DNA of 64,000 nucleotides from Alcanivoracaceae bacterium (GCA_016744455.1 JADGEI010000005.1:1-64000); one strand, 5' to 3'. Shown: positions 368 through 43,114, counted from the stretch's first letter. The notes: a model not told the origin generated them from the letters alone. Program-made: numbers and translations.

Positions 368-1675
368 GTGTTAATATATGATATGCTGATGCAAAAAAAC
401 CCTTGGACAATTGAACTGTTATTTGGAGTAGTGTTTTTACTACTTTCTATGCTTACAGCATGGTTGACGTCTTATTGGGCATTGAGTTTTTTGATATGGG
501 CTTTAGTATATATTATTTGGAAATGGATTGAGCTTTATCATTTTTACGTGTGGTATGCATCAGGATCAGACTTGAAAAAAGTGCCACTTAGCTCTGGTAT
601 TTGGGAAGTTTTATCAAATAAAGTGATTAAATACAAAAAACTTAACAAAAAAACCTTAAAGAACAATGCATTCTTAATCCACCAATTTAACACAACAGCA
701 CAAGCTCTACCATATGCGACTTTGTTGCTGAATAGTAACTTTGAAATTAAGTGGTCAAACCAAGAATCTCAGAAACTATTTGGAATTGTAGAAAAAGACC
801 TGAACAGCAAAGTTGAAAACATAATACGTTCACCTAATTTTATAAAAATTTTAGGTAAAACTGATGAGGTTAATGATGTTAAAATAGATAATCCAACAGA
901 TTCCAGTAAAAAAATTCAAATAAGGTTGATAAAGCTTTCAAATAAACGCTATTTGTTGGTTGCCAGAGATATTAGTGAACAAGAATCGTTGCGAAAATCA
1001 CGTAAAGCTTTTGTCGCAAATGCTTCCCATGAACTACGCACACCTCTAACGGTAATTTCTGGGTATTTAGAAATGCTAAATAGTGCGAATGATTTGGATG
1101 AAATATGGAAACAACCCATTCATCAAGCACAAAACCAAGCCGTTAGAATGGAAAAAATAATTGATGATATGCTTAGACTTTCAAGCATGGAACATGGGCG
1201 GTATTTAGAACGTGACAACAGTAAAGCTGATGTACCTAAACTCCTAAATAGCGTGTTTAATCAAGTAAAAACAAGCACTTATGCTGAGAAACATGCACTT
1301 AAGGCTAATATAAATTCAGAATTAACTATTGACGTTGATACTGAAGAAATCACTAGCCTAGCGTTGAACCTGTTAAATAATGCCATCATCCATACACCTG
1401 CTGGCTCAACAGTTTCGCTTGAATGGTTTGCAGAAGGAACACAAGCACTTCTGAATGTCTGTGATAATGGTCAAGGTATAGAAGAGAAACATATAACGCA
1501 TTTAACTGAGCGATTTTACCGAGTTGATAATTCTAAAGACAAAAATACCAATTCCACAGGATTAGGTTTGGCTATAGTTAAGCAAATTTGTGACAACCAC
1601 AATGCTACACTTACTATCACAAGTGAAATCAATAAGGGTAGTTGTTTTAAAGTATATTTCCCAATTTTTAGTTAG
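368..1675 (+). CDS. phoR: phosphate regulon sensor histidine kinase PhoR
   Basis: This is a membrane sensor kinase, probably the partner of the PhoB encoded at 18.3 kb. Two hydrophobic segments lie in the first 60 residues with almost no periplasmic loop, as in PhoR. A PAS-like region follows (about 105-205). The HisKA H-box is NASHELRTPL, with the phosphoacceptor His at about residue 221. The HATPase domain has an N-box (NLLNNAIIHTP), DNGQGI, and GLGLAIVKQI. PhoR senses phosphate through PstSCAB/PhoU and phosphorylates PhoB. The frame opens with GTG at 368, but ATGs at 383 and 389 are equally plausible starts. Unusually, phoR is about 17 kb from phoB and separated from it by the TonB block. 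A possible Pho box lies upstream. Confidence 0.85.
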   Translation: MLIYDMLMQKNPWTIELLFGVVFLLLSMLTAWLTSYWALSFLIWALVYIIWKWIELYHFYVWYASGSDLKKVPLSSGIWEVLSNKVIKYKKLNKKTLKNNAFLIHQFNTTAQALPYATLLLNSNFEIKWSNQESQKLFGIVEKDLNSKVENIIRSPNFIKILGKTDEVNDVKIDNPTDSSKKIQIRLIKLSNKRYLLVARDISEQESLRKSRKAFVANASHELRTPLTVISGYLEMLNSANDLDEIWKQPIHQAQNQAVRMEKIIDDMLRLSSMEHGRYLERDNSKADVPKLLNSVFNQVKTSTYAEKHALKANINSELTIDVDTEEITSLALNLLNNAIIHTPAGSTVSLEWFAEGTQALLNVCDNGQGIEEKHITHLTERFYRVDNSKDKNTNSTGLGLAIVKQICDNHNATLTITSEINKGSCFKVYFPIFS

Positions 1676-2660: not shown

Positions 2661-4409
2661 TTAATCTAAGAATTCTGTCCATCCATTAGTCCAAGCATGA
2701 GACTCTGATTTAAAAGCACCTACATAGTTTACTTTATCAAAAAAAGCACTCCAAATGTTTGGATCCATATTTTTACCAGTTGGTGTATTAGCTGTTGGGT
2801 AAATATTATTTAGTGCAGGATCTGCCACTTCATTACCAGCCTGAGACTCAAAAAAAGATTGAACTGTAAAAGCATCACCTTCTTCTTCCTCGAAGTTTTG
2901 TGCACAGCTAATAACAGTATTTTCCATGGTTAAAAAACCAGTTAAGTTGTCTGTAGACCCTGCGGCTGCAAATGTAGCTTCAGAATCAATATCTAAACAT
3001 CTCTCGAACCCAGTGACTATTACATTAGTGAAGTTTGCACCAGTTCCACGCCTTAATACCATCCCTCTAGTGGTTTTATTGTCAGAATCAGCACCGATAA
3101 AAGTAGCATTTGCAATCATAGGTTGTGAGCGTGGAACCGCATCATTATTTAACTCATAGTTATCAGCTTCAATACCACGGTCTTTGTCGTTTGCTGCATT
3201 TTGATCTTGTTTTACCAGTACGTATTGTACTTTTCCATTCCAGCCATGTGTCCAATCTAGTGAATCATCTTTAATATTAGTTAAAACAATATGCTTCATA
3301 TTTACTGTACCACCAAATGCTTCAATACCATCATCTTCATTCGCATGAACTTGAACATAATCTATAATAGTACCATCACCTACACCTTGTAAAGCAATGC
3401 CGTTTAATTCATCTTCATCATTGATTCTGAAACCGCCGAACTGAACTCGAACATATTTTATAACCCCACTAGAGTCATGTGGTTGATCACCACCAAAATT
3501 ACCTGATGCACCTTCTCCTACGTCTTCGCATTGAGAAAAAGCAACACTTTCATCGCAAATGTTCAACGGGGCTTTACCATTAATAACTAAACCACCCCAA
3601 TTACCAGCGCCAGCAGATTCATCACTTGCATTGTATGGTCCAGTAAATACGATGGGTGATTTTGCGGTGCCTTCCGCAAAGAGTTTAGAGCCACGTTGAA
3701 TTGCTAAGAAGTCATTACCTGTCACTCCAAGTACACGTGTACCTGGTTCGATGGTTAAATTACTAGTGGCCCCGCCATCTTCGCCTACAAATACAGCACC
3801 TTGTAATACCCAATTTGTATCATTTGTCAATGTTTTGTTTCCAGTTAGTGTTCCTGATAAAACACAAGTCTTGGGTTGCGTTGATGTGGCTGCAAAATCG
3901 GGACATGTGGTAAATTCGGTTTGATAGGTACAAACTGATGAGTCATGATTCTGTCCAACAATATTGTCTATTGGTTCTAAATCAAAAGATACTCCCTCGC
4001 TAGCAAGAATATCGCTATTAATGCCTGTTAAGCTAACAGAAGCTTTTTGACAACTCTTAAAGTCTACATCCATTAATCCAAAATTTTCATTGACAGCATT
4101 AGAATCACCGTCAATAGAGCCACCTGAAGTGGTTTTTAGCTCAAATGATAAAATAGATTGCCCGGAAACAACAGGAGCATCTCCTGTCACCCAAAAAGCT
4201 GTACCATTATCATCATAGATAAAACCTGTCACAAACATGAGTCCTTTTTCATCTCCTGTTTTCAAGAACTCAAAACCCCAACCACTATTTGTTCCTGGTT
4301 TAAACCAAACTCCTTCAAACATTTTGTTATCGACGCTAATCGCTTGAGAAACTCCAGCTACAACCAGGGCACCAGTTAAAACAATACTTTTAAATTTTCC
4401 TACTTTCAT
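2661..4409 (-). CDS. secreted beta-helix-like protein, Pho-linked
   Basis: The protein has 582 residues and a signal peptide (about 1-23, ending VSQA). An N-terminal domain (about 25-165) carries WFKPGTNSGWGFEF. A long repetitive region (about 175-480) is rich in short beta-strand/turn patterns such as LTIEPGTRVLG, WGGLVINGKAP, IKYVRVQFGG and IDYVQVHANEDDGIEAFGG. This looks like a right-handed parallel beta-helix. The C-terminus reads YVGAFKSESHAWTNGWTEF. It is acidic and probably periplasmic or surface-exposed. I do not recognise an enzymatic motif. It is divergent from the TonB operon, and four PhoB-type half-sites on its own strand (4467-4506) precede it. It may therefore bind or process a phosphorus compound for the receptor at 9.6-12.8 kb, but this is inference. 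Confidence 0.75.
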   Translation of the reverse strand: MKVGKFKSIVLTGALVVAGVSQAISVDNKMFEGVWFKPGTNSGWGFEFLKTGDEKGLMFVTGFIYDDNGTAFWVTGDAPVVSGQSILSFELKTTSGGSIDGDSNAVNENFGLMDVDFKSCQKASVSLTGINSDILASEGVSFDLEPIDNIVGQNHDSSVCTYQTEFTTCPDFAATSTQPKTCVLSGTLTGNKTLTNDTNWVLQGAVFVGEDGGATSNLTIEPGTRVLGVTGNDFLAIQRGSKLFAEGTAKSPIVFTGPYNASDESAGAGNWGGLVINGKAPLNICDESVAFSQCEDVGEGASGNFGGDQPHDSSGVIKYVRVQFGGFRINDEDELNGIALQGVGDGTIIDYVQVHANEDDGIEAFGGTVNMKHIVLTNIKDDSLDWTHGWNGKVQYVLVKQDQNAANDKDRGIEADNYELNNDAVPRSQPMIANATFIGADSDNKTTRGMVLRRGTGANFTNVIVTGFERCLDIDSEATFAAAGSTDNLTGFLTMENTVISCAQNFEEEEGDAFTVQSFFESQAGNEVADPALNNIYPTANTPTGKNMDPNIWSAFFDKVNYVGAFKSESHAWTNGWTEFLD

Positions 4410-4466
4410 AAATAACCTCTAAATTAATAATACTTGCATTAAAAATTTGAATAATAATGTAAGTTT

Positions 4467-4506
4467 ATGACGCTTTAATGTCAAACAAATGAAATTTACA
4501 TGACAT
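4467..4506 (-). promoter_or_regulatory. Pho box array for the beta-helix gene
   Basis: Read on the minus strand, 7-bp half-sites recur every 11 bp: ATGTCAT (4500-4506), ATTTCAT (4489-4495), TTGACAT (4478-4484) and GCGTCAT (4467-4473). This matches the tandem PhoB box pattern (CTGTCAT repeats spaced by 4 bp). The array lies 58-97 bp before the start of the leftward gene at 4409. An AT-rich TTACATTATTAT stretch follows, where a -10 element would be expected. Confidence 0.75.
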
Positions 4507-4522
4507 ATATATCAATTTTGTG

Positions 4523-4584
4523 ATGACACATTATTGTCATTTAAATGTCACAATATTGTCATTGAAACTTAATTACAATGTCAT
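4523..4584 (+). promoter_or_regulatory. Pho box array for the TonB operon
   Basis: Half-sites in one 11-bp register are ATGACAC (4523), TTGTCAT (4534), ATGTCAC (4545), TTGTCAT (4556), a degenerate unit (4567), and ATGTCAT (4578-4584). Three consecutive near-consensus units make this the strongest PhoB-type array in the window. A -10-like ATAAAAT follows at about 4593, and the first gene starts at 4628. With the minus-strand array next door, both divergent promoters look PhoB-activated. Confidence 0.85.
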
Positions 4585-4627
4585 AATTCGGGGATAAAAT
4601 GCACCCTTTTATTCAGCTTAATATCCA

Positions 4628-5374
4628 ATGAAAATAATAAGACTTTTAACAATAATGTTGATTATGACATTTAATGTCGTAATGTCTCAAGATAATGACA
4701 AGTTAGCTAGAAACTTAATAAGTCTCCGTGGCGAAGTGGAAGATTTACAATCAGAACTAAAAATCCTTAAATCTGAAAATAAAAATTCATTGATTTATTT
4801 AAATACGCGTAAAACAGAATTACAGGCAAATATTGATAGAAAAAGCCTAAAATCTAAGCAGGCTCATGTAGAACATGAAAAATTAATAGAAAAAATTAAA
4901 TTATTAGGTGCTGATTCTGAACAATTAGTACCTCATGTTATTAAATTAATATTAAGTATTAAAAAAAACTTAAATACAGGTATACCATTCAAACAGAAAG
5001 AAAGGTTGTCTGTTGTCGAGGATATCGAGCGAAAACTTAATGCAAGAAAAGTTACATCACAATATGCAATAAACAGTTTATGGGCTTTCTTAGAAGATGA
5101 ACTGCGTTTAACTAGAGAGAATGCAATTTATTCTCAAACCATTCAAATAGATGGTGAGAATAAACTAGTTGAAATTGTGAAATTGGGAACAGTTATTATG
5201 TATTTTAAAACCCGTGATGATAAGTATGGTGTAGCTAAAAATATAGATGGATTATGGGATTATCAATTCTTTGAAGAGCAAAACAAACAAAAACAAATTG
5301 CCTTGTTATTTGATTCGCTAAAAAAACAAATTAGACAAGGTTATTTCTCCTTGCCTTTATCATTAAACCAATAA
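4628..5374 (+). CDS. DUF3450 periplasmic protein of a TonB2-type system
   Basis: The protein has 248 residues and a signal peptide (about 1-20). A coiled-coil region (about 25-95, many E/L/K heptads) is followed by a globular C-terminal part with IVKLGTVIMYFKTRDDKYGV. The length and layout fit the DUF3450 family, whose genes open TonB2-type operons (DUF3450-ttpC-exbB-exbD-tonB-TPR) in Vibrio and relatives. Its exact role is not established. It probably acts with the TtpC coiled coil in the periplasm. It is the first gene after the Pho box array, and the next gene begins 10 bp after its stop. Confidence 0.8.
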   Translation: MKIIRLLTIMLIMTFNVVMSQDNDKLARNLISLRGEVEDLQSELKILKSENKNSLIYLNTRKTELQANIDRKSLKSKQAHVEHEKLIEKIKLLGADSEQLVPHVIKLILSIKKNLNTGIPFKQKERLSVVEDIERKLNARKVTSQYAINSLWAFLEDELRLTRENAIYSQTIQIDGENKLVEIVKLGTVIMYFKTRDDKYGVAKNIDGLWDYQFFEEQNKQKQIALLFDSLKKQIRQGYFSLPLSLNQ

Positions 5375-5384
5375 GGAGAAGGTG

Positions 5385-6758
5385 ATGAAAAATATTATAA
5401 TACTTGTTTTTGGAATTTTTTTCACACTCAGTTTGCTAGCACAAGTTGCGCCTGAAGAAAAAACAACAATACCTGAAATCAATCCTAATAAATCAGCTGA
5501 AGATTTAAATAAAGCATACCAAAAAGAATATGCGTTTTTAACAGCTCAAATTAAAAGTATTAAAACACGTACACAAGATTACATAAAATCCTCTACAAAA
5601 GAGAAAAAAAGTCTCAGCAAACAAATTAATAATTTGGAATCCAAGCTGTTAGACTTAGATAATCAAATCAATCAAATAGAAGATGATATTTTCACGCTAC
5701 AAAGAAACTCTGAGTCGGCTAGTGACAACAATAACTTGATTGAATCAACCATAACTCAAGCTAAGTCGACAATGTCTGAGTATGATTTCGAAGGTTTTAC
5801 TGATGAATCTAACATAGAAGATATAAATAAAATCGAAAGTTTAATTCTTTTTGCCATTAAAATTGTTGAAAAATACTCCAGCGTTAGTAAAGAAGAAGGT
5901 TCCTTTTTTCTTCAGAATGGACAGGAAGTTAAAGGAGAAATTATAAAAATTGGTAACATTGCATCATATGGTCATTCGCAACAAGGATCTGGATCTTTAG
6001 CACCAGCAGGTGAGAATAAATTTAAGGTGTGGCGTAATGAAGATTCAACAATCGTTGCTGAAATTTTTAACGGTAAAGCGCAAGAATCTTTGCCTATATT
6101 TTTATACGAATCGAGTATAAAATCAATTGTACAAAAGAAGAAAAAGACGATTAGAAGTGTTATAGAGTCTGGTGGAATAATTGCATGGATTATTGTGTTT
6201 TTGGGTTTGTTTGCTTTGATATTAATAGTATTACGTATTTGGTTTTTGAGAAAATCATCATCAAGCACAGAAAAAATTCTTAAAAAAATCGTTCATAATA
6301 TTGAGAACGATGATATGGAACATGCTATGCGGATAGCTAGCCACAAACATAGCTCAAGTGGACGTGTTATGTACGCTGTATTACGTAATATTTCAAGAGA
6401 TAGAGAGCATATTGAAGATATAGTTTCTGAGTCAATATTGCATGAATCAGGGCAGTTAAATCGTTTTGGTTCCTTAATCATGGTTGTCGCTACAGTTTCT
6501 CCACTTCTAGGCTTACTTGGAACAGTGACTGGCATGATTTCAACCTTTGATATAATTACTGAATTTGGCACAGGTGATCCAAAATTATTATCAGAAGGAA
6601 TTTCTATTGCTTTGGTGACTACTGAGGTTGGGTTGGCAGTAGCTATTCCTGCTTTAGTTTTTGGTAATGTTTTATCTGGTTGGGCCGAACGTATTAAAGA
6701 TGATATGGAAAAGGCAGCACTTCGTGTAATCAACGTGTATAAAAAATTACAAGAATAA
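5385..6758 (+). CDS. ttpC: TtpC-like MotA/TolQ/ExbB proton channel protein
   Basis: This is a long ExbB relative. After a signal peptide (about 1-20) comes a periplasmic coiled coil (about 35-120), then a central domain (about 160-250). One membrane helix lies at about 265-285. The C-terminal MotA/TolQ/ExbB domain has LGLLGTVTGMISTFDIITEFG and TEVGLAVAIPALVFGNVL. TtpC is an extra component required by the Vibrio TonB2 complex. ATG 5385 sits six bases after AAGGAG and is preferred to the GTG at 5382. The next gene follows with no gap. Confidence 0.88.
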   Translation: MKNIIILVFGIFFTLSLLAQVAPEEKTTIPEINPNKSAEDLNKAYQKEYAFLTAQIKSIKTRTQDYIKSSTKEKKSLSKQINNLESKLLDLDNQINQIEDDIFTLQRNSESASDNNNLIESTITQAKSTMSEYDFEGFTDESNIEDINKIESLILFAIKIVEKYSSVSKEEGSFFLQNGQEVKGEIIKIGNIASYGHSQQGSGSLAPAGENKFKVWRNEDSTIVAEIFNGKAQESLPIFLYESSIKSIVQKKKKTIRSVIESGGIIAWIIVFLGLFALILIVLRIWFLRKSSSSTEKILKKIVHNIENDDMEHAMRIASHKHSSSGRVMYAVLRNISRDREHIEDIVSESILHESGQLNRFGSLIMVVATVSPLLGLLGTVTGMISTFDIITEFGTGDPKLLSEGISIALVTTEVGLAVAIPALVFGNVLSGWAERIKDDMEKAALRVINVYKKLQE

Positions 6759-7388
6759 ATGATGAGTATTTGGCAGCAATCATTAGATTATCTTAGCTCA
6801 GGAGGTTTTGTGATGCCTCCTTTAGTTATTGGTACATGTGCCTTATGGTGGATGCTTGGTTATCGAATGGTCGCCTTAAAAAGAGGTTCTCAACGTTCTG
6901 TTAGGGTCTTGGTTTATCGTTTTTTAAAAGGAAAAATGCCAAGCGGTAATGGTGTTTTAGTCAGGGCACTATATAAAAGCATGGAGTTAAAAAATCACAA
7001 GTTAGACAATCTAAGGCGTTATCTTGATGATGTATTGGCTGAAGAGTACTCTGAAATAAAGAAATACAAAGTCTTTATTTCAACTATTGTAATTGTGGCT
7101 TCACTTTTAGGTTTGCTTGGCACTGTTTCTGGAATGATTGAAACATTCGAATCTTTGGGTGATATGTCCTTATTTTCTCAATCAGGAGGTATAGCTGGTG
7201 GCATCTCTCAGGCATTAATAACAACACAAATGGGCTTGGCGGTTTCGATTCCTGGCCTGATAGTCAATGGCTTTTTAGATAAAAAACAAAAGAGTTTAGA
7301 AATTGAAATGGCACAACTCAAAGATTTACTGTGTGCTCCTATTCCTGGCGAAGACGAATTAATCAAGACTCAAGATAGTCTACAATAA
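6759..7388 (+). CDS. exbB: ExbB-type proton channel subunit
   Basis: The protein has 209 residues. A first membrane helix lies near the N-terminus (PPLVIGTCALWWMLGYRM), and two more helices form the MotA/TolQ/ExbB core (VFISTIVIVASLLGLLGTVSGMIETF and ITTQMGLAVSIPGLIVNGFL). It uses the proton gradient with ExbD to energise TonB in the inner membrane. The short length matches ExbB2 of TonB2 systems. The start is ATG at 6759 or 6762, immediately after the ttpC stop, and the genes are probably translationally coupled. Confidence 0.88.
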   Translation: MMSIWQQSLDYLSSGGFVMPPLVIGTCALWWMLGYRMVALKRGSQRSVRVLVYRFLKGKMPSGNGVLVRALYKSMELKNHKLDNLRRYLDDVLAEEYSEIKKYKVFISTIVIVASLLGLLGTVSGMIETFESLGDMSLFSQSGGIAGGISQALITTQMGLAVSIPGLIVNGFLDKKQKSLEIEMAQLKDLLCAPIPGEDELIKTQDSLQ

Positions 7389-7403
7389 ATAGAGAAGAGA
7401 ATT

Positions 7404-7814
7404 ATGCGATTTAGAGAAAAAAAAGAAGTTGTAGAAGATTTGAATATTTCACCACTTATTGACATGGTTTTTATTTTATTGATTTTTTTTATGGTGTCTA
7501 CTACCTTCGTTAAAGATATGAAACTGGACTTGGATCGACCATCAGCATCATCAGCAAGTACAGCTTCAACCAAAGCAGTACGTGTCTATATTGACAATCA
7601 AGGAGAGGTATATATAGATGGTGAAAGCATTAGAATTTGGGTTTTACAATCGCGATTAAGAGATGTGCTTAAAAGCAAGACTCCAAAATCAGTCTTAGTG
7701 GTAACAGATGTGAATGTACCATCTGGTAAATTGGTTGAAGTTGTCGATCAAGCGCGTTTAGCAGGTGCAAGTGATGTTGGTGTTGCTACATCAAAAGAGG
7801 TGGGAGCAGGTTAA
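7404..7814 (+). CDS. exbD: ExbD-type TonB-energising subunit
   Basis: The protein has 136 residues. It begins with a short cytosolic stretch and the ExbD/TolR signature EDLNISPLIDMVFILLIFFM, whose membrane-embedded Asp (PLIDMVF) is the proton-carrying residue. A periplasmic domain follows (VYIDNQGEVYIDG...VVTDVNVPSGKLVEVVDQARLAG). It partners with the ExbB and TtpC proteins encoded just upstream. Its stop is directly followed by the tonB start codon. Confidence 0.9.
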   Translation: MRFREKKEVVEDLNISPLIDMVFILLIFFMVSTTFVKDMKLDLDRPSASSASTASTKAVRVYIDNQGEVYIDGESIRIWVLQSRLRDVLKSKTPKSVLVVTDVNVPSGKLVEVVDQARLAGASDVGVATSKEVGAG

Positions 7815-8471
7815 ATGATAACCGATAATAAAGCTCCTGACAGATGGTTGCGATTTTTTAGTGCATTTTTTTTAATGTTGTTAGGTACAGCATTGGTTTT
7901 GAGTACTGTTATCTTAATTAATAATAAGAGAATAAAAGATGACAAAAATACCGATAAAGTAGGTACTGAAATAAAGTTTAACCGCAAAAAGCCGAAAAAC
8001 AAGCAAGTGGTTAAGAGACAGCGCCCCAAACCTAAACCAAAGAAAGCTCGCCGAGCTCCACCTGCACCAATTTTAGGGTTGAATAGCAGTTTGACAGGAG
8101 TTGATTTAGCCCTTCCTGAGTTTTCACTAGATGGCTTAAACGAATTAGATAGTGATATATTAGGGAATGCATCTGGAGTTGTCATGACAGATGACATGGT
8201 AGATGCCTCACCTAAAGCTGTTTATCAAGCACCTGCAAACTATCCAGCTAGGGCTCGAGCAAAAGGAGAAGAAGGTTATGTTGTGTTTTCCTTGTTAATT
8301 GGTATCACTGGAGAAATTGAACAAATGAAAATTATCGATTCAAACCCTGAAGGAGTATTTGATGATGCAGCCACACAATCTATGCAAAGTTGGAAGTTTG
8401 AACCGGCTCAATACCAAGGTAAGCCAGTAAAAACTTGGGCAAAACAACGAATAAGATTCGATTTAAGCTAA
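7815..8471 (+). CDS. tonB: TonB-family energy transducer
   Basis: The protein has 218 residues, with one N-terminal membrane anchor (about 13-35). A basic, proline-containing spacer has KKPKNKQ and RPKPKPKKARRAPPAP. The C-terminal TonB domain (about 140-218) has APANYPARARAKGEEGYVVFSLLI and WKFEPAQYQGKPVKTW. It carries energy from the ExbB/ExbD complex to the TonB box of outer-membrane receptors. The short periplasmic spacer resembles TonB2 more than TonB1. It lies in the putative PhoB-controlled operon. Confidence 0.9.
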   Translation: MITDNKAPDRWLRFFSAFFLMLLGTALVLSTVILINNKRIKDDKNTDKVGTEIKFNRKKPKNKQVVKRQRPKPKPKKARRAPPAPILGLNSSLTGVDLALPEFSLDGLNELDSDILGNASGVVMTDDMVDASPKAVYQAPANYPARARAKGEEGYVVFSLLIGITGEIEQMKIIDSNPEGVFDDAATQSMQSWKFEPAQYQGKPVKTWAKQRIRFDLS

Positions 8472-9622
8472 TGAAAAAAATATTGCAAATTATACTAATA
8501 GCGTTCTTCCTGGTTAGTTCTATAGCTCATGCTAAAGCGTCAAAAAAAGACGAAATCAATTACCTTGATTTAGCCTCTCTTATGCTAAAAGATAATAATT
8601 ATGAGCGGGCTAAAATAGCCTTGTCGAAAGTTAATTTAAATGAAGAAAGCATTGATAAACAACGTTTTTATATCGTATCTGCCTTATTATTTGTTGGTAC
8701 CAAGGACAATGAAAAAACAATTTCAATGATTCAAAAAGCTAGAGAACTAGGAGAAGTTGACCCGGTTATGAATGTGTATTTAGCACAAGCTGCTTATGCT
8801 AATAATGACTACCTATTGACAATCGAAGCCTTAGCAGCTGCAGGAAAAGGCGTAGAAAAAATACCTGCAATTTACCTCATGCGCTCGCAGAGTTATTGGA
8901 ACCTATTACAATACGATAATGCTATAGCCACATTAGAACAGGCAGCTAAGATTTTCCCTGAGAATAAGAGTTTTCCACGACGTAAGGTTTTTTATTATAT
9001 TGAACTTGGTTATAACAAACAAGCTGTAATACTAGGTCAAAAATATTTGAAAAACTTTAAAGGGCAACGGGAGGACTATATCGCCATTGGAAATGCCTTA
9101 CGAATGTCGGGTGATAATGAAACTGCATTGATGTTTTTAGAAAACGCTCTGCTTAAATTTCCACAAGATGAAAACATAGCTAAATCATTAGCGGCCATTT
9201 ATATTCAAAATGATAAGTATTTTACAGCAGCAAAAATTATTCATGATGCAGCTTTGCTTAATCCTCAATTGATTAAAGAGGCTGCTGAACTCTATCGTAG
9301 AGCAGGCTCCAATTATATGGCTTTAACACTTAATGGCATGATAAGTGATCAAAAAGAGAAGCTTAAACAGCGTATGGCATTAATGTTACAGCTAGAAAAT
9401 TTTGAACAAGTCGCTGCCATGGAAGATAACCTTAAACGTGTGCATCTACAAAATGATGAAAATACGAAATATGCTATGGCATATGCTTTTTTTAAAACGG
9501 GTAATTTCAAAAAAACCAATGAATATTTAAGTCTAATCACCGAAGAAAGGAATTTTAAAAAAGCAATAGAACTAAGAAAAATCATGGCAGAATGCCAATT
9601 AGAATCGTGGCTTTGCCAATAA
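8471..9622 (+). CDS. TPR-repeat periplasmic protein of the TonB operon
   Basis: The protein has about 383 residues, with a signal peptide (about 1-22, ending AHAKA) and a solenoid of tetratricopeptide-like repeats along its length (for example YWNLLQYDNAIATLEQAAKIFP and ALRMSGDNETALMFLENALLKFP). The family closes TonB2 operons in Vibrio-type systems. A scaffolding role in the periplasm is likely but not shown here. ATG 8471 overlaps the tonB stop as TAATG. It is preferred to the upstream in-frame ATG at 8435, which would bury the start in tonB and precede the signal peptide. Confidence 0.8.
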   Translation: MKKILQIILIAFFLVSSIAHAKASKKDEINYLDLASLMLKDNNYERAKIALSKVNLNEESIDKQRFYIVSALLFVGTKDNEKTISMIQKARELGEVDPVMNVYLAQAAYANNDYLLTIEALAAAGKGVEKIPAIYLMRSQSYWNLLQYDNAIATLEQAAKIFPENKSFPRRKVFYYIELGYNKQAVILGQKYLKNFKGQREDYIAIGNALRMSGDNETALMFLENALLKFPQDENIAKSLAAIYIQNDKYFTAAKIIHDAALLNPQLIKEAAELYRRAGSNYMALTLNGMISDQKEKLKQRMALMLQLENFEQVAAMEDNLKRVHLQNDENTKYAMAYAFFKTGNFKKTNEYLSLITEERNFKKAIELRKIMAECQLESWLCQ

Positions 9623-9635
9623 AAAAGAGCATATA

Positions 9636-12600
9636 ATGAAAAAAAACATCTTTTTATTACTGTTATTATCACATGTAGCCTTAGCCAAAAATGAAGCCAA
9701 AGTTTCGATCTTTGTCTTTTTTAAAGGTGAGCCTTTGAGCCATGTTGATATTTATGAAAATCATCAGAAAATTGCTACAACTGACAGCTATGGAAATGCC
9801 GTAATAGTATTAAAGGCTGGGAAACATCCAATTCTACTAAAAAGCCAAGAAGATAAAATATATTCTCATGAGTTGCAGTTGGCTGAAAATGAAATCATAC
9901 AATTGTTAGTGGATATAAAGGTCAAAAACCAAAAACCAACTGTTGACGTAGAAACTTCAAAGTTGAAAGAGGAGGTGAACTCTGTAAATCAGGGAGAAAA
10001 CCCACAAGAAAAAAGTGTCGTGACCACAATTGATGGAAATGTTGTTTCAGTAGAAGACAATAAGGGTATAGCTGGTGCGCGTGTTTATATCAGTGGTGTC
10101 AGTGATAATTTAATTACTGATGCTGATGGAAGTTTCAGTACTAAGTTGCCATCTGGTACTTATAGTATTAGTGTGTTACATGCTCAATTTAACAGTGTTA
10201 TTAAGCCCAATATTGAAATCAGTGCTCAAGGTTTAAAACAATTTAAAATAGAACTTACACCATCAGGTACAGAATTGCCTGAATTTGTTGTGATTGTACC
10301 TTTTATTGAAGGGTCTTTAGCATCTGTTTTGGAAGAGCGTAAAAATAACAACTCGGTTGCTAATTATCTAAGTATGGAGCAAATATCAAAATCTGGAGAC
10401 TCGGATGCTGCAGGAGCACTTAAACGGGTGACAGGTTTAACTTTAGTTGATGGAAAATTTATTTTTGTGAGAGGTTTGGGCGAGCGTTATTCTAGTACTT
10501 TGCTTAACGGAGCAAACCTACCTAGTCCAGATCCAACACGTCGAGTTGTTCCTTTGGATTTGTTTCCAACTAGTGTTGTAAAAAGTATCGAAGTGCAAAA
10601 AGGCTATTCGGCTAAGTTGCCAGCAGAATTTGGTGGAGGGTCAGTCACTTTAAAAACCATTAGTATTCCAAATGAAAACTTCTTAAAAGTTGGTGTATCA
10701 TATGCTAATAATTCGCAAACCACAGGTAAAGATGGCCTCAGTTACTTCGGAGGAGGCAAGGACTGGTCAGGATATGACGATGGTACACGAGCAATACCTC
10801 CGCTTTTATTAAATGCTATTGCAAATGGCACCGAATTAAGGCCAAGCAACCCATTTATTGCTGGTGGGTTTGATCCTGAAGTGCTTGAAGCTATTGGTGA
10901 GTCATTATCTAATACTTATAATTTAGATAATGAAACTGTTGATCCTGGTTTAGGGTTGAATTTGGCCGGAGGTGCGCGTCATACTTTGGACTCTGGTACG
11001 GTGCTAGGGTTCTCTTCAGCCATTGAGTACGGTTCAGATTATCAAACACGTTCAGAATTACGTCGGGACTACATTGTTTCTTCAGGTTCAAACTTAGCTT
11101 TGGATAGTGAAGAAGTATCAAATACCACCAACAGAAATATAAATTTGAGTGGTTTTTTAACCACGGGTATAGAGTTTGCTGAAAACAATAAAATTTCTGT
11201 TAATTATATGTTATTACGAAATACACAAAACTTTAATGAAATTGCTGAAGGATTTAATGAAGATTTGGGTAACTCTAGAAGAATTTTTGAATTACGATGG
11301 ACAGAACGAGAACTTGCTTCATTTCAAACTTATGGAGAACATGTTTTTAATGATATTGGAGGTTTGCAACTTAACTGGCAATACACAGATTCAACTGCTA
11401 ATTTTGATGAGCCTGATAATAGAATTTACCGGTATGATCAACGAGAAGAGGGTGACTTTATTTTTTCTACACGCAATGATAGTAACTCAAGGGTGTGGCG
11501 AGAACTCGAAGATGTAAGTAATGATATTCATTATGATTTGTCTTTTCCACTGAGCCCATCCAACAACCACAACATACTTTTTACTGGTGGCCAAAGTTGG
11601 GTGAAAAAAGATAGAAACTCAGACATAAGACGGTTTGTTTTTGAAGATGTCGGATCATTAGTAAATCAAGTCAATCGAAATGACGGATTAGAAAACATTC
11701 TTTCGCCTGAATTTATTGATGCCAATGGTTATCAACTCATTGAAGTGACGCGTGCAACGGATAACTATTTTGCAAATTTAGACATAAAGTCTAGTTATTT
11801 TGGGATTGATTATGCTTACAAAGAGCTTTTTAAAATGTCAGTAGGTGTACGAAAAGAAGATTTTTCACAATCAGTAACAACTTTTAGTCTTTTTGATGCC
11901 AATGCCTCACCAATTGTGGTCTCGCTAGAAGATTCTAGCTATTATCCTGCCTTTTCATCTACATTATTTTTAAACGGAAACAACCAATTTAGATTTAATT
12001 ATTCTCAGACTTCAACAAGGCCAGATTTTAAGGAACTTTCTCCAGCTCAGTTTAAAGATCCAGTACTTAACCGAGATATTATCGGTAATCCAGACTTGGT
12101 AACAGGGCAAATAAAGCATTACGACCTGCGTTGGGACAAGTATTTTACTCCTGGAGAATTTGTCTCTGTCAGCTTATTTTATAAACAGTTTATCAACCCA
12201 ATTGAGTTAATTATTTTGCCGGGTTCTTCGCGAATAATTAGTTTTGATAATGCAGAATTTGCAACAAATTCTGGTATAGAACTTGAGTTATACAAAGATT
12301 TTTCATTTGTGAGCCATTGGTTAAAAAGCAAATTTTGGTCAGACCTTTATGTCAATGCTAATTACGCTTATATTAATTCAGAAATAACCCTTGGTACAGA
12401 TCGTCCAGGCGGACAAACCAACAATGTACGTCCCTTACAAGGTCAATCTCCTTATGTTGCTAACTTTCAATTGGGTTATGACAATAAAGAAAAGGACATA
12501 AGTACTTCTTTGTTGTTTAATGTTTTTGGAGAAAGAATCTCTGAAGCAGGAACTAGTGGTAAACCAGATGTTTATCAACAATCGTTTAACCAATTAGATT

Positions 12601-12758
12601 TTGTCTATTCACAAAGATTATTCGATAAATTTAAATTTTCATTAAAAGTTAAAAACTTACTTGATGATGAGGTTTTATTCTTAGTAGGTGACGAAACTGC
12701 ACGCTCTTACACTAAAGGGCGAAGTGTAAGTTTAGGTGTTAGCTATAATATTTATTAA
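9636..12758 (+). CDS. TonB-dependent outer membrane receptor, Pho-linked
   Basis: The protein has 1040 residues and a signal peptide (about 1-18). Two carboxypeptidase-regulatory-like Ig folds lie in tandem at about 20-95 and 125-205. The plug domain follows (LASVLEERKNNNSVANYLSMEQI, FVRGLGERYSSTLLNGANLPSPDP, IEVQKGYSAKLPAEFGGG), then a 22-strand-type barrel ending in an aromatic-rich C-terminus (SLGVSYNIY). It is the last gene of the TonB operon, 13 bp after the TPR gene, and pstS follows. The context suggests uptake of a phosphorus-containing ligand, but the substrate cannot be read from sequence. The double N-terminal domain makes it larger than classic siderophore receptors. Confidence 0.85.
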   Translation: MKKNIFLLLLLSHVALAKNEAKVSIFVFFKGEPLSHVDIYENHQKIATTDSYGNAVIVLKAGKHPILLKSQEDKIYSHELQLAENEIIQLLVDIKVKNQKPTVDVETSKLKEEVNSVNQGENPQEKSVVTTIDGNVVSVEDNKGIAGARVYISGVSDNLITDADGSFSTKLPSGTYSISVLHAQFNSVIKPNIEISAQGLKQFKIELTPSGTELPEFVVIVPFIEGSLASVLEERKNNNSVANYLSMEQISKSGDSDAAGALKRVTGLTLVDGKFIFVRGLGERYSSTLLNGANLPSPDPTRRVVPLDLFPTSVVKSIEVQKGYSAKLPAEFGGGSVTLKTISIPNENFLKVGVSYANNSQTTGKDGLSYFGGGKDWSGYDDGTRAIPPLLLNAIANGTELRPSNPFIAGGFDPEVLEAIGESLSNTYNLDNETVDPGLGLNLAGGARHTLDSGTVLGFSSAIEYGSDYQTRSELRRDYIVSSGSNLALDSEEVSNTTNRNINLSGFLTTGIEFAENNKISVNYMLLRNTQNFNEIAEGFNEDLGNSRRIFELRWTERELASFQTYGEHVFNDIGGLQLNWQYTDSTANFDEPDNRIYRYDQREEGDFIFSTRNDSNSRVWRELEDVSNDIHYDLSFPLSPSNNHNILFTGGQSWVKKDRNSDIRRFVFEDVGSLVNQVNRNDGLENILSPEFIDANGYQLIEVTRATDNYFANLDIKSSYFGIDYAYKELFKMSVGVRKEDFSQSVTTFSLFDANASPIVVSLEDSSYYPAFSSTLFLNGNNQFRFNYSQTSTRPDFKELSPAQFKDPVLNRDIIGNPDLVTGQIKHYDLRWDKYFTPGEFVSVSLFYKQFINPIELIILPGSSRIISFDNAEFATNSGIELELYKDFSFVSHWLKSKFWSDLYVNANYAYINSEITLGTDRPGGQTNNVRPLQGQSPYVANFQLGYDNKEKDISTSLLFNVFGERISEAGTSGKPDVYQQSFNQLDFVYSQRLFDKFKFSLKVKNLLDDEVLFLVGDETARSYTKGRSVSLGVSYNIY

Positions 12759-12913
12759 TTGAATCACCAATTTAATATTGAAGTGCAACAGTCTAGTTTT
12801 TAGATTTTACTTTTCAACTTCTGTAATATTGCAAATCATTGTGACAGGAAAAAAATGGTATGATTTTAGCTTCCAATAATGTGGTATAATGATAAGTGAC
12901 AATATTGTTGCAT

Positions 12914-12931
12914 ATGTCATAAAACTGTCAC
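12914..12931 (+). promoter_or_regulatory. Pho box upstream of pstS
   Basis: ATGTCAT (12914-12920), AAAA, CTGTCAC (12925-12931) is nearly identical to the canonical two-repeat PhoB box. It ends 51 bp before the pstS start. An additional inverted TTGTCAC lies at 12896-12902. Confidence 0.88.
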
Positions 12932-12982
12932 AATGAATCGCTAAACTGCAAGAATTCTTTAATAGCAAGGTATGAAAAAGCC

Positions 12983-14020
12983 ATGAAAAATTTAAAAACT
13001 TTAATAGCAATAGCTGCACTTACGACAAGCCTAACTGCCTTATCGGCTGGCCGGGATTACATTTCAGTTGTTGGTTCATCAACGGTGTATCCTTTTGCGA
13101 CAGTGGTAGCGGAAAAATTTGGCAAATCAACAGATTTTAAAACACCAAAAATTGAATCAACAGGTACAGGCGGTGGCATGAAATTGTTTTGCAAAAGTAT
13201 CGACATTAATACTGCTGATATGACAAATGCTTCTCGTAGAATGAAAAGTAGCGAATTTAAAATGTGTCAAGAAAATGGTGTAAAGGGTATAGTTGAAGTA
13301 CTAATTGGGTATGATGGTATTGTTGTTGCCAATGATATTAAATCACATACTTTTGCATTAACACGTAAAGATTTGTTTTTGGCTCTAGCAAAAGAAGTGC
13401 CTAGTGAAAAAGATGGTGAATTAATCGTTAATCCAAATAAAACTTGGCATGATGTAAGAGCAGAACTGCCTAATGTTAAGATTGAAGTTTTAGGACCACC
13501 ACCAACATCGGGTACACGAGATGCTTTTGTTGAACTGGCAATGGAAGGTGGTTGCAAACAATTCCCTTGGATAAAAAGCACTAAGAAAAAAGATAAAACA
13601 AAATATAAATCAATTTGTCATACCATTCGTGAAGATGGTGCTTATATTGAAGCAGGCGAAAATGATAACTTAATCATCCAAAAACTACAAAAGAACCCTG
13701 ATGCTTTAGGTATATTTGGGTTCTCATTTTTAGATCAAAATTCAGATTTGGTTAAAGGGGCGGCTATTGATGGATCTGCACCAGAATTTGAGTCGATTGC
13801 TGATGGTTCTTACCCTGTTTCACGTCCTTTGTACTTTTATGTAAAAAAAGCACATGTTGGTAAAATCCCTGGAATGAGTGAGTTTTTAGAAGAGTTTACC
13901 AGTCACAAGGCTATGGGTGAAGAAGGTTATTTAATTGATAAAGGGTTGATTCCATTAGATGAAGAAAAATACCAAAAAGTATTTTCAGATGTTAAAAACT
14001 TATCTAATTTATCCCTATAA
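12983..14020 (+). CDS. pstS: periplasmic phosphate-binding protein PstS
   Basis: The protein has 345 residues and a signal peptide (about 1-22). Phosphate-binding motifs are VVGSSTVYPFATVVAEKF near the N-terminus, ESTGTGGGMKLFC, DMTNASRRM, and LGPPPTSGTRDAFVELAMEGGC. It delivers phosphate to the PstC/PstA permease. A Pho box precedes it, and pstC-pstA-pstB-phoU-phoB follow. A strong hairpin sits between pstS and pstC and may keep pstS mRNA more abundant than the rest. Confidence 0.93.
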   Translation: MKNLKTLIAIAALTTSLTALSAGRDYISVVGSSTVYPFATVVAEKFGKSTDFKTPKIESTGTGGGMKLFCKSIDINTADMTNASRRMKSSEFKMCQENGVKGIVEVLIGYDGIVVANDIKSHTFALTRKDLFLALAKEVPSEKDGELIVNPNKTWHDVRAELPNVKIEVLGPPPTSGTRDAFVELAMEGGCKQFPWIKSTKKKDKTKYKSICHTIREDGAYIEAGENDNLIIQKLQKNPDALGIFGFSFLDQNSDLVKGAAIDGSAPEFESIADGSYPVSRPLYFYVKKAHVGKIPGMSEFLEEFTSHKAMGEEGYLIDKGLIPLDEEKYQKVFSDVKNLSNLSL

Positions 14021-14089: not shown

Positions 14090-15472
14090 ATGAGTCTATC
14101 AGCAATAATTTTTATCCTGTGTTTATTAGCAGCTTTCAACTTTTTTATCAAAAAGCAAAAGATATATGCTCTACAACTTAGTCAGGGAACTAATAATAAG
14201 GTCAAGCAAACATTGCCTAAATACTTTGGCTACGTGGCTGCATTATGGTCATTAATTCCTGCTTTGCTTGTTTTGTTAGTAATTGAAATAATTGATGAAC
14301 CTTTAATAAAAAACAATTTAACTCAATACATGCAAGCAGAAAATATCGCAACAGCGGATAATTATGATTTATACCTGAATGAAATTAAAAACATCGATAT
14401 TAATCAAATAAATAGTATTGATGAAACAAAGAAGAAGATTCATACACACTATTATAACTTACAAAGTATTGCTAGAAATGCTAAAGCCGTTACAGTATTG
14501 GCGCTAGCTGTTTTGATGGCATTATTTGGTTTAAAAAAAGTAAAAAGCCAAACACCTGCGCGTATTTACTTTGAAAAATTTATAGAAATAATTCTCTTAA
14601 TAGCAGCATCAATTGCTATATTAACTACAGTTGGTATAGTTTTATCGGTATTATTTGAATCGATTAGGTTTTTTGGTGAAATACCAATCGTAGACTTTAT
14701 GTTTGGACTAGATTGGTCACCACAAACAGCTATCCGAAGTGATCAAGTCGGCTCTTCTGCTGCATTTGGAGCTGTACCATTATTTATTGGGACGATGCTT
14801 ATTTCTACTGTTGCTTTATTTATAGCCGTGCCACTTGGATTGATGAGTGCCATTTTTTTATCTGAATATGCATCAAGTAAGTTTCGATCTATTGCTAAAC
14901 CAGTATTAGAAATTTTGGCTGGTATTCCAACAGTTGTCTACGGGTTTTTTGCAGCTCTTACAGTTGCTCCATTTATTCGTAGTTTTGGAGAGTCTTTAGG
15001 TTTGTCTGTCGCTTCAGAGAGTGCTCTTGCCGCTGGTTTGGTAATGGGAATAATGATAATTCCATTTGTTTCATCTTTAGCAGATGATGTTATATCAGCA
15101 GTTCCAAACGCTATGCGTGAAGGCTCACTGGGGTTGGGTGCGACAAAGTCAGAAACAATTGTTAAAGTCTTAATACCAGCTGCGCTTCCAGGCATTGTTG
15201 GGGGTGTTTTACTTGCTGCTTCAAGAGCTATTGGTGAGACAATGATTGTCGTTATGGCAGCTGGGTTGGCAGCTAATTTAACCGTCAACCCACTCAATGC
15301 AGTTACTACAGTAACCGTTCAAATTGTTACCTTATTAACAGGTGATCAGGAGTTCAATAGTGCTAAAACGCTGGCAGCTTTTGCTTTAGGATTAATGTTG
15401 TTTATCACCACCTTAGTTTTGAATGTTATTGCATTGCACGTTGTACGTAAATACCGAGAGCAATATGAGTAA
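14090..15472 (+). CDS. pstC: phosphate ABC transporter permease PstC
   Basis: The protein has 460 residues, longer than the roughly 320 of E. coli PstC. It has an N-terminal extension with two or three extra membrane helices and a soluble segment (to about residue 150). The usual permease core follows. The ABC-permease 'EAA' loop reads MREGSLGLGATKSETIVKVLIPAALPG. The extended form is common in marine gammaproteobacteria. It forms the inner-membrane channel with PstA. Its end overlaps the pstA start by 8 bp. Confidence 0.9.
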   Translation: MSLSAIIFILCLLAAFNFFIKKQKIYALQLSQGTNNKVKQTLPKYFGYVAALWSLIPALLVLLVIEIIDEPLIKNNLTQYMQAENIATADNYDLYLNEIKNIDINQINSIDETKKKIHTHYYNLQSIARNAKAVTVLALAVLMALFGLKKVKSQTPARIYFEKFIEIILLIAASIAILTTVGIVLSVLFESIRFFGEIPIVDFMFGLDWSPQTAIRSDQVGSSAAFGAVPLFIGTMLISTVALFIAVPLGLMSAIFLSEYASSKFRSIAKPVLEILAGIPTVVYGFFAALTVAPFIRSFGESLGLSVASESALAAGLVMGIMIIPFVSSLADDVISAVPNAMREGSLGLGATKSETIVKVLIPAALPGIVGGVLLAASRAIGETMIVVMAAGLAANLTVNPLNAVTTVTVQIVTLLTGDQEFNSAKTLAAFALGLMLFITTLVLNVIALHVVRKYREQYE

Positions 15473-16748
15473 AAATAATAACACCTCAAAAATAGAAAAA
15501 AGCTTAAAGAGACGTTACTTAAAAGAAAACATCTTCAAAGCCTCTGGTTATGCTTCTATTGGCATTGCATTCATGTTTTTAGTAGTTTTGTTGGCTGATA
15601 TAGGCATTAAAGCTATGCCCGCATTTATTCAAACTCAAATTGAATTAAAACTAGATTTAAGCTATGAATCATTGCAGCTAAACCCAGAAAGTTCAGTTGC
15701 AGAGATTAAAAAAGTTGATTTTCGCCAAGTCATTCGTAAAGCTTTAAGGAAACAGTTCCCTGATGTTAAAAAAAGGAAAGAGAAAAAACAATTATATTCA
15801 CTAATTAGTAGTGGAGCTGAATATCAACTTCGAGATATGGTATTAGAAAATAAAGAATTAATTGGTAACGAGCATAGCTTTAATCTATATGCAGATGATG
15901 ATGTTGATGCTCTTATTAAAGGCACAATAAATCGAAAATTAGCGCAATCGGAAAGGCGTGTAAAAGATTTTAAAATTTCTTTGATTGAAGTTTTAGAAAA
16001 GAATAATCAAGTGAGTAAAAAATTTAATTGGACATTTTTTAGTAGTGGTGATTCGCGCGAGCCAGAATTAGCAGGTATTAAAGGAGCAATTATGGGCTCA
16101 ATCTACACTATATTGGTGACCTTGATGTTGTCATTTCCAGTGGCAGTCGCAGCAGCTATTTACTTAGAAGAATTTGCACCAAAAAATCGTATGATTGATT
16201 TCATCGAGATAAATATTAATAATTTGGCAGCAGTGCCTTCCATTGTTTTTGGTTTACTAGGCTTAGCGGTTTTTATTAACTTCTTTTCTTTGCCAAGGTC
16301 TGCACCTATAGTTGGCGGAATTGTCTTATCATTGATGACATTACCAACAATTATTATTGCTTCTCGTTCAGCAATTAAAGCTGTTCCACCTTCATTGCGT
16401 GAAGCCGCTCTTGGATTGGGAGCTTCAAAAATGCAAACGGTATTTCATCATGTATTTCCCGCAGCATTACCAGGCATATTAACCGGCACCATAATTGGTA
16501 TGGCACAAGCCTTAGGAGAAACTGCTCCGCTATTGATGATTGGAATGGTAGCATTCATAGTTGATATTCCGCAAACTATTGTAGATCCAGCCACAGTTTT
16601 ACCTATACAAGTATTTTTATGGGCAGATTCTCCAGAAAGAGGATTTTTAGAAAAAACTTCAGCAGCTATCTTAGTGCTAATAGGTTTTTTGATAATAATG
16701 AACGCATTAGCCATCTATTTGCGTAAGAAATTTGAGAAGAAATGGTAA
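15465..16748 (+). CDS. pstA: phosphate ABC transporter permease PstA
   Basis: The protein has about 427 residues. It has one N-terminal helix, then a hydrophilic periplasmic insertion (about 40-190, rich in K/E), then five permease helices. The EAA loop reads [27 protein letters not shown]. It is longer than E. coli PstA (about 300), matching the extended PstC here. ATG 15465 overlaps the pstC stop by 8 bp and is preferred to an upstream in-frame start at 15423 inside pstC. Confidence 0.9.
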
Positions 16749-16749
16749 T

Positions 16750-17604
16750 ATGAATACACAAGCTTTACAAAACAATTTGATGAAAGATAAGTCTAATGAG
16801 GCTATACTAGCTGAGCACAGCAAAACCATTGGCCAACCATTTTGTGATAACCCAAAAATAAGCACACGTGACGTTAATGTTTATTATGCTGAAAATCATG
16901 CAATTCAAGATGTTTCATTGGATATGGGTCAGAATGAAGTTATTGCATTAATTGGACCTTCTGGTTGCGGTAAATCAACTTATTTACGCTGCCTCAACCG
17001 TATGAATGACACTATCGATAGTTGTAGAGTTAGTGGAAAATTTATCATTGACGACATAGATATATATGCTAAATCACAGGATCCTGTGTTATTACGTGCT
17101 CGGGTTGGTATGGTTTTTCAAAAACCTAACCCTTTTCCAAAATCTATCTATGATAATGTTGCATATGGGCCAAAAATTCATGGTTTAACAAGCAACAAAG
17201 CAGAATTAGATGATTTGGTTGAAGAATCATTAAGTAAAGCTGGATTATTTAATGAAGTCAAGGATCGATTAGGTGATTCCGGAACAGGTTTGTCAGGTGG
17301 CCAACAACAACGTTTATGTATTGCACGTACTATAGCAGTTCAACCAGAGGTTATTCTAATGGATGAACCGGCTTCTGCTTTAGACCCTATTGCGACGGCT
17401 AAGGTTGAAGAATTAATTAACGAATTGAGGAAAAATTACACCATTGTAATCGTTACTCATTCAATGCAACAAGCTGCACGCGTATCACAAAGAACAGCTT
17501 ATTTTCATTTGGGCAAGTTAATAGAAGTTGGTGAAACAAAACAGATTTTCACCAACCCACTACATGAATTAACTGAACGGTATATAACCGGTAGATTTGG
17601 ATAA
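16750..17604 (+). CDS. pstB: phosphate ABC transporter ATPase PstB
   Basis: The protein has about 284 residues. Walker A is GPSGCGKST, the Q-loop region is [12 protein letters not shown], the ABC signature is LSGGQQQR, Walker B is [13 protein letters not shown], and the switch His is in VTHSMQQA. It powers phosphate import through PstC/PstA and takes part in PhoU/PhoR signalling. ATG 16750 is one base after the pstA stop. A start at 16732 would lie inside pstA. Confidence 0.95.
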
Positions 17605-17608
17605 TACT

Positions 17609-18319
17609 ATGGAAAATTTAGATTTTAATCAACACACATCAAAAAAATACAATCAAGAACTCGAAAAAATCAGAAGCTCATTGCTTGTAATGGGAGGGAT
17701 GGTTGAAAAGCAAGTAAAAAAAGCAGTCGAAGCCTTGGTAGAAGGTAAAAGCAAGATGGCAAAAAAAGTCATAAAAAAGGATTTAGGTGTTAATGCTATG
17801 GAGGTCCAAATTGATGAAGAGTGCACGCAAATTATTGCTAAAAGACAACCTGCTGCCAGTGATTTACGTTTGGTCTACTCTATAATTAAGAGCATAACAG
17901 ATTTTGAAAGAATTGGTGACGAAGCCGAAAAAATTGCAAAGTGTGCTAGTTTCCTTATTGATGAAAATTATTTAGGTAATTATTCTCACGAATTTATGAA
18001 ACTTTACCAGCTAGTAGCAATAAATTTAAATCAAACGTTAAATGCTTTAGCTCGATTGGATGCTGAGGAGGCTTTGACTATTGCAAAGAAAGATGAAATA
18101 GTTGATTTAGCCTTTGAACGTCTTAATAATGATATTATAAGAAATATGACAACTGAACCGACAAAACTCAACTTATTATTACGTTTAAGTTGGAGTGCAA
18201 AAGCATTGGAGAAGATAGGTGACCATACAACTAATATCTGTGAATATATTATATACCTAGTGAAAGGTAAAGATGTACGTCATTTGGATATTAATACCAT
18301 TAAAGAAGAGTATTTTTAA
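17609..18319 (+). CDS. phoU: phosphate signalling regulator PhoU
   Basis: The protein has about 236 residues and is all-helical, with two PhoU repeats. The conserved metal-site segments are KSITDFERIGDEAEKIA and WSAKALEKIGDHTTNICEYIIY. It is the negative regulator that links Pst transport to PhoR kinase inhibition. The start is ATG 17609, four bases past the pstB stop. The phoB start follows one base after its stop, giving an uncommon pst-phoU-phoB linkage. Confidence 0.93.
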   Translation: MENLDFNQHTSKKYNQELEKIRSSLLVMGGMVEKQVKKAVEALVEGKSKMAKKVIKKDLGVNAMEVQIDEECTQIIAKRQPAASDLRLVYSIIKSITDFERIGDEAEKIAKCASFLIDENYLGNYSHEFMKLYQLVAINLNQTLNALARLDAEEALTIAKKDEIVDLAFERLNNDIIRNMTTEPTKLNLLLRLSWSAKALEKIGDHTTNICEYIIYLVKGKDVRHLDINTIKEEYF

Positions 18320-18320
18320 T

Positions 18321-43096: not shown

Positions 43097-43114
43097 ATGA
43101 CAAAATAATGACAA
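43097..43114 (-). promoter_or_regulatory. Pho box upstream of the porin gene
   Basis: Read on the minus strand, TTGTCAT (43108-43114), TATT, TTGTCAT (43097-43103). The two half-sites are identical and each differs from CTGTCAT at one base. The box ends 46 bp before the start codon. Confidence 0.85.

Follow-up and report, generated by a model that had tools for sequence, protein, structure and literature searches.

The window analysed here, 64,000 nucleotides from an Alcanivoracaceae bacterium (GCA_016744455.1 JADGEI010000005.1:1-64000), carries a cassette composed of a TonB2-type energiser, a TonB-dependent receptor (TBDR) gene at the end of the same operon, and a divergent gene for a secreted ElpS-like protein of 582 aa. 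The cassette lies between phoR and pstSCAB-phoU-phoB, and predicted PhoB boxes are present in its promoter region. It probably represents a self-contained outer-membrane importer under PhoB control, serving a phosphorus-bearing compound that is either too big or too scarce to be taken up through the phosphate porin. Outside Bacteroidota, little is known about how Gram-negative bacteria take up organic or bound phosphorus beyond porin size. The cassette joins a regulatory code, an apparently dedicated motor, a receptor, and a secreted partner in one conserved unit, so that deletion of the receptor alone would allow a direct test of what the ElpS family does. The host genome comprises 3.62 Mb in 47 contigs (completeness, 99.96%), and its closest named relatives are metagenome-assembled genomes of Lysobacterales and Marinicella.

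The energiser and receptor genes, all on the plus strand, constitute a single tight operon (4628-12758) with intergenic gaps of 7, 0, 15, 0, -4, and 13 bp. The operon encodes, in this order, a TtpB-like DUF3450 protein (4628..5374; PF11932, 76 bits), a TtpC-like, long MotA_ExbB proton-channel protein (5382..6758), ExbB (6759..7388; PF01618), ExbD (7404..7814; PF02472), TonB (7815..8471; PF03544 [TonB_C] and TIGR01352), a TtpD-like protein matching TPR families (8471..9622), and a receptor of 1040 aa (9636..12758; PF13620/PF13715 and PF07715). For ttpD, a TTG codon at 8435 was rejected as the start, the ATG at 8471, which overlaps the tonB stop codon, being the most likely one. The upstream phoR gene for the phosphate-regulon sensor kinase (368..1675, plus strand) was identified by the PhoR N-terminal domain (PF11808) together with HisKA and HATPase_c. 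On the other side, pstS (12983..14020, plus strand; PF12849 [PBP_like_2], with TIGR02136 below its cut-off) starts 224 bp past the receptor end and has its own Pho box (TGTCATAAAACTGTCAC; 12915..12931, plus strand), and forms a separate transcription unit. It is followed on the same strand by pstC, pstA, pstB, phoU, and phoB (14090..19007); of these, phoU and the pst genes were assigned by matches to the PstC/PstA-type permease, ABC, and PhoU families. The first-pass annotation of this DNA had described a complete TonB2-type energiser, a dedicated 1040-residue receptor, and a divergent secreted beta-helix-like protein between phoR and pstS; every gene that it named was recovered by open reading frame and Pfam analyses or by family matches, and the fold predicted for the secreted protein agrees with that description.

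The six-gene order TtpB-TtpC-ExbB-ExbD-TonB-TtpD, with the expected domains and with MotA_ExbB matches in both the ttpC-like and exbB products, identifies the energiser as TonB2-type. Its ExbD is only 26-31% identical to the paralogues of the host genome, and in a tree of TtpC, ExbB, and ExbD, a long branch parts the window type from a group including the genome's own canonical TonB2; some deep nodes of this tree are poorly supported, and only the split itself was used. The window motor is thus placed outside the lineage of canonical TonB2 systems (the genome's own copies and those of Alteromonadales). Nor were a Fur box and iron control found, but these are traits of the described TonB2 members and not part of the definition of the complex. 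Judging from its sequence, the window motor would work like TonB2 but represents a divergent sister type.

TtpC of the window type was detected in 69 of 299 genomes of the order, once in each. In all 62 genomes where it shares a contig with the receptor gene, it is located 2.8-3.6 kb upstream of that gene on the same strand; in the remaining seven, the receptor is on another contig or gave no match at the threshold used. Because this TtpC lineage is found only with this receptor and always beside it on shared contigs, the motor is very probably dedicated to the elpS-linked receptor. The exclusiveness of this pairing is a further hint that TonB2-type motors serve other purposes besides iron uptake.

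The receptor contains two N-terminal Ig-like domains ahead of the plug, of which the second corresponds to CarboxypepD_reg by sequence and the first is seen in the predicted structure only. A sequence search of PDB yielded no match to the receptor. Its AlphaFold model (pLDDT, 84) matched TonB-dependent transporters (TBDTs) in Foldseek, with a best E value of 4.7e-26, and together with the PF07715 plug, the modelled barrel identifies it as a putative TBDT. Relatives of the receptor were present in 95 of the 299 sampled genomes.

The intergenic stretch at 4410-4627 contains TGTCA half-sites at 4535, 4546, 4557, and 4579 in an 11-bp register and a near-match at 4524 (tandem array, 4524..4584, plus strand). 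A reverse-strand pair of half-sites at about 4489-4505, which forms a Pho-box-like site with one mismatch (4489..4505, minus strand), faces the 582-aa gene. The PhoB-type boxes at 4.46-4.59 kb noted at first pass are therefore real as sequence elements. The strict tandem box TGTCAY-N5-TGTCAY occurs only four times in the 3.62-Mb genome, all within the window: two overlapping sites at the cassette promoter, a third ahead of pstS, and the fourth about 50 nt upstream of a Porin_O_P gene (box, 43097..43113; gene, 41587..43050; both on the minus strand). The reversed control pattern occurs once genome-wide. The porin (phosphate-selective-porin family; PF07396, 63 bits) is a probable co-regulated outer-membrane channel, i.e. 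a predicted Pho-regulon porin.

To avoid circularity, de novo motif discovery was restricted to 21 promoters of this operon taken from outside the window's own family, and the motif obtained was the Pho box. In a scan of the 64-kb window with the resulting matrix, the sites at pstS, the cassette, and the porin gene were among the top seven matches, although the top-scoring match (at 9374) falls within a coding region. For 20 pooled promoters, the plus-strand score was 209 versus 159.5 +/- 3.2 for dinucleotide shuffles, about 15 standard deviations above. The best Pho site in most loci is located at about -85 to -125 in forward orientation. No Fur box was found at the promoter; the best match (11/19) was equalled or beaten by 298 of 300 shuffles, and Fur control is thus not supported. 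With tandem, 11-bp-spaced PhoB boxes predicted in its promoter, the cassette is a candidate member of the Pho regulon. The strict-box count, the motif discovery, the pooled promoters, and the phosphate-related neighbours described below support PhoB-type control and a phosphorus role of the cassette, which had been suggested as its wiring.

The gene order was searched for in other genomes, as the first-pass annotation had recommended, and was recovered from many relatives; in almost all cassette loci, an elpS-like gene is adjacent or divergent. At the class level, an even draw of 274 genomes included 20 with an elpS-like gene. The receptor gene is beside it in most of those examined, and more than half of these pairs also have a TonB motor. 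In the flanks fetched for 22 loci outside the family, pst, phoU, phoB, Ppx/GppA, or phosphate-porin genes were found near the cassette in eight; the same genes were found near neither of the host genome's two other TonB2 loci. An association of this kind is also present on an Alteromonas macleodii plasmid, where the order is phoB-phoR-pstS-2OG oxygenase-elpS-TBDR-TtpB-TtpC-ExbB-ExbD-TonB-TPR, and in two class-level gammaproteobacterial loci (L138 and L142), where pstS is located between the elpS-like and receptor genes. Two elpS-like domains in tandem were also noted at L138 and L142. Related open reading frames (a 2OG-Fe(II) oxygenase in L096) are present near the elpS-TBDR pair in L074, L075, L076, and L096, from Xanthomonas-like genomes and the Alteromonas plasmid.

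The 582-aa protein (2664..4409, minus strand) has a signal peptide, and neither a Pfam or NCBIfam model nor a PDB sequence matched it. A confident AlphaFold model (pLDDT, 89.9) shows an N-terminal lipocalin-like barrel, whose best PDB matches are nitrophorins, followed by a right-handed beta-helix. Foldseek detected no PDB match to the beta-helix below an E value of 1e-3, i.e. no close solved relative, and no enzyme class is therefore claimed. Between the invariant acids D359-D360-E363 and their counterparts D381-D382-D385, the spacing is exactly 22 residues, or about one helix turn, and they should therefore stack, an arrangement that suggests a metal-binding or catalytic groove. The beta-helix core is single-copy in the host genome. 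The lipocalin-like domain recurs in roughly 15 other host-genome proteins, some with two copies (contigs C21, C8, C39, C40, C11, and C24), and is an unannotated domain family.

Homologues of the 582-aa protein were found in Sphingomonas (36% identity; E value, 3e-36), Indioceanicola (40%), and Xanthomonas-like genomes (33-34%), and in each of these the gene is followed by a TBDR gene and then gspCDEF. Because this is the elpS-TBDR-gsp layout published for cc0170-cc0171-gsp of Caulobacter, the 582-aa protein is classified as ElpS-like; the classification is based on core homology and the synteny of relatives. The N-terminus (MKVGKFKSIVLTGALVVAGVSQA) lacks the lipobox cysteine and thus the lipoprotein character of the ElpS family, whereas the cysteine is present in relatives from the Alteromonas, Xanthomonas-like, and Sphingomonas loci.

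These features can be combined into the following scheme. Under low phosphate, PhoR-PhoB would act on the tandem boxes and activate both divergent units. Sec would export the ElpS-like protein, and the type II secretion system (T2SS) of the cell would probably carry it further (two GspD secretins above the cut-off are encoded by the host genome); at the cell surface, the protein may capture or process the substrate. The receptor, powered by its own TtpB-TtpC-ExbB-ExbD-TonB-TtpD motor, would then drive the substrate into the periplasm, where a phosphatase would free phosphate for PstSCAB, itself presumably activated through a box of this type. The host genome contains one PhoA-type phosphatase gene (PF00245); PhoX was not found in it. 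Several points weigh against this interpretation. In Marinicella proper, the cassette lies away from pst, and the box is mostly degenerate (10/12); the genes that follow the cassette there (aspartokinase-homoserine dehydrogenase and GHMP kinase) were rejected as unrelated. The box is weak or lacking in some sister families (L090, and the energiser-less TBDR-elpS pairs of L068 and L080-L084). No phosphatase or phosphodiesterase is encoded within the cassette, and its gene content therefore does not indicate the substrate. Furthermore, CC0171 of Caulobacter crescentus was reported to be constitutive, and its deletion left ElpS production unaffected (PMC2996285).

The Caulobacter system also underlies an alternative in which the receptor and motor serve to power display or release of the ElpS-like protein; that protein would itself be the effector (e.g. 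by stimulating extracellular phosphatase activity), and no nutrient would be imported. In C. crescentus, ElpS (CC0170) is secreted, is made under phosphate starvation, and is encoded next to CC0171 with gsp genes after it; its overproduction increased secreted phosphatase activity (PMC2996285). A link of the elpS-TBDR pair to a type II secretion operon and not to a TonB motor, as in the Sphingomonas, Indioceanicola, and Xanthomonas-like genomes, would also fit a release function. However, release of Caulobacter ElpS needed the T2SS and its production did not need cc0171 (PMC2996285), TBDRs are generally importers, and the predicted plug and barrel of the window receptor are ordinary, so that this alternative appears unlikely. 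Compared through published descriptions, both systems have a secreted ElpS-family protein beside a TBDR. What follows in Caulobacter is a type II secretion operon, and no TonB motor has been described for that pair, whereas the window has a TonB2-type motor. Caulobacter ElpS also differs in being a lipoprotein (LAGC); the signal of the window protein is signal-peptidase-I-like, and its lipocalin-like domain is an addition.

The Vibrio TonB2/TonB3 systems, compared in the same way, share an identical six-gene order and the same protein types with the window, but no ElpS-like gene or dedicated receptor has been described for the Vibrio TonB2 operon. Since described TonB2 systems are Fur/iron-linked and serve siderophore uptake (PMC6957404), the cassette could be a classical iron system re-wired to PhoB for low-phosphate uptake of iron, an iron- or metal-phosphate, or a siderophore complex. 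The nearest PDB folds of the receptor are siderophore and heme receptors, though these dominate PDB. The lack of a Fur box, the separate motor lineage that occurs only with the elpS-linked receptor, and the presence of phosphate rather than siderophore genes as neighbours all argue against this possibility, and a CarboxypepD_reg-type N-terminal domain like that of the window receptor is also found in low-phosphate Flavobacterium TBDTs (PMC8115612); an iron function is thus very unlikely.

Flavobacterium johnsoniae possesses TBDTs induced by low inorganic phosphate (Pi) together with FI/FII lipoproteins (PUSIII and PUSIV), and the ElpS homologue FII and its TBDT (PUSIV), located in a phoBR cluster, are induced by Pi depletion only (PMC8115612). 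As in the window, a TBDT with a CarbopepD_reg_2 domain is encoded beside an ElpS-homologous protein with a pectin-lyase-like fold, in that case a lipoprotein, but the system belongs to Bacteroidota and the described cluster has no dedicated TonB/ExbBD motor. A polysaccharide- or glycan-uptake receptor acting with a glycan-active beta-helix enzyme, with phosphate control reflecting phosphorylated glycans or nutrient balance, would fit the weak beta-helix matches to a GH87 glucanase, AlgG, and polygalacturonase, the acidic pairs one helix turn apart, which may recall GH28-type active sites, and the plant-glycan binding or hydrolysis proposed for FI/FII (PMC8115612), but it is highly improbable given that none of these PDB matches reaches E < 1e-3, that no carbohydrate-active enzyme is among the recurring neighbours scanned, and that pst, ppx, phoU, and porin genes are among the conserved ones.

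Import of a phosphorus-bearing compound thus remains the preferred interpretation. The plasmid loci of Alteromonas and Pseudoalteromonas (L094, L096, L097, and L101) resemble the window in having an elpS-like gene, a TBDR, and the six-gene TonB2 set, the Alteromonas form with phoB-phoR-pstS in addition. Their motors belong to the canonical TonB2 lineage and represent a separate recruitment, whereas the window motor is of the divergent lineage, and their elpS-like proteins are mostly larger than that of the window and have a lipobox-like cysteine. It is conceivable, albeit doubtful, that the ElpS-like protein and the receptor are a two-part outer-membrane importer dedicated to phosphorus compounds and comparable to SusC/SusD, with the beta-helix replacing SusD as the surface binding partner, that occurs in Proteobacteria and Bacteroidota and on at least three occasions gained a module for power or secretion (the divergent TonB2-like motor, the canonical TonB2 motor, and the type II secretion operon).

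The ElpS/TBDR pair, the motor type, and the regulation type are known already, and work on the PhoB regulon of Caulobacter also reported several TonB receptors (PMC11208175); the fixed combination under PhoB with its own motor lineage did not turn up in the literature searched. A full-text literature search, with most subscription papers outside its scope, returned no description of a PhoB-controlled TonB motor, which is a weak negative. The system had been called under-described. This does not hold for the receptor/beta-helix pair, which has published relatives (PMC2996285 and PMC8115612), but does apply, in the literature searched, to an exclusive PhoB-controlled motor acting on that pair.

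A relaxed Pho-box scan of the genome (one mismatch allowed) gave mostly intragenic matches where inspected, and a larger Pho regulon was therefore not inferred. Only three clean intergenic promoter matches were found, preceding genes for a 1042-aa protein, a GPAT-type acyltransferase, and a hybrid kinase. The first consists of three overlapping near-perfect copies (L104:4126-4164; contig C31, about 42125-42163, minus strand) about 80 nt before the gene for the 1042-aa protein, which has no Pfam match and is followed by a DUF285 protein; this gene is a possible further Pho target. Outside the window, a Pho-box-like site (TGTAACACAATTGTCAT) is found where a PhoU_div (DUF47) gene starts (gene, L105:2270-3076; contig C41, about 81.3-82.1 kb). 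Within the window, the gap between phoR and the elpS-like gene contains a decayed coding remnant with several stops (1912-2505, plus strand); its pieces have no Pfam match, but its start reads like an IS110-type transposase. Next to the Porin_O_P gene are genes whose products look like a SulP-type transporter and a carbonic anhydrase.

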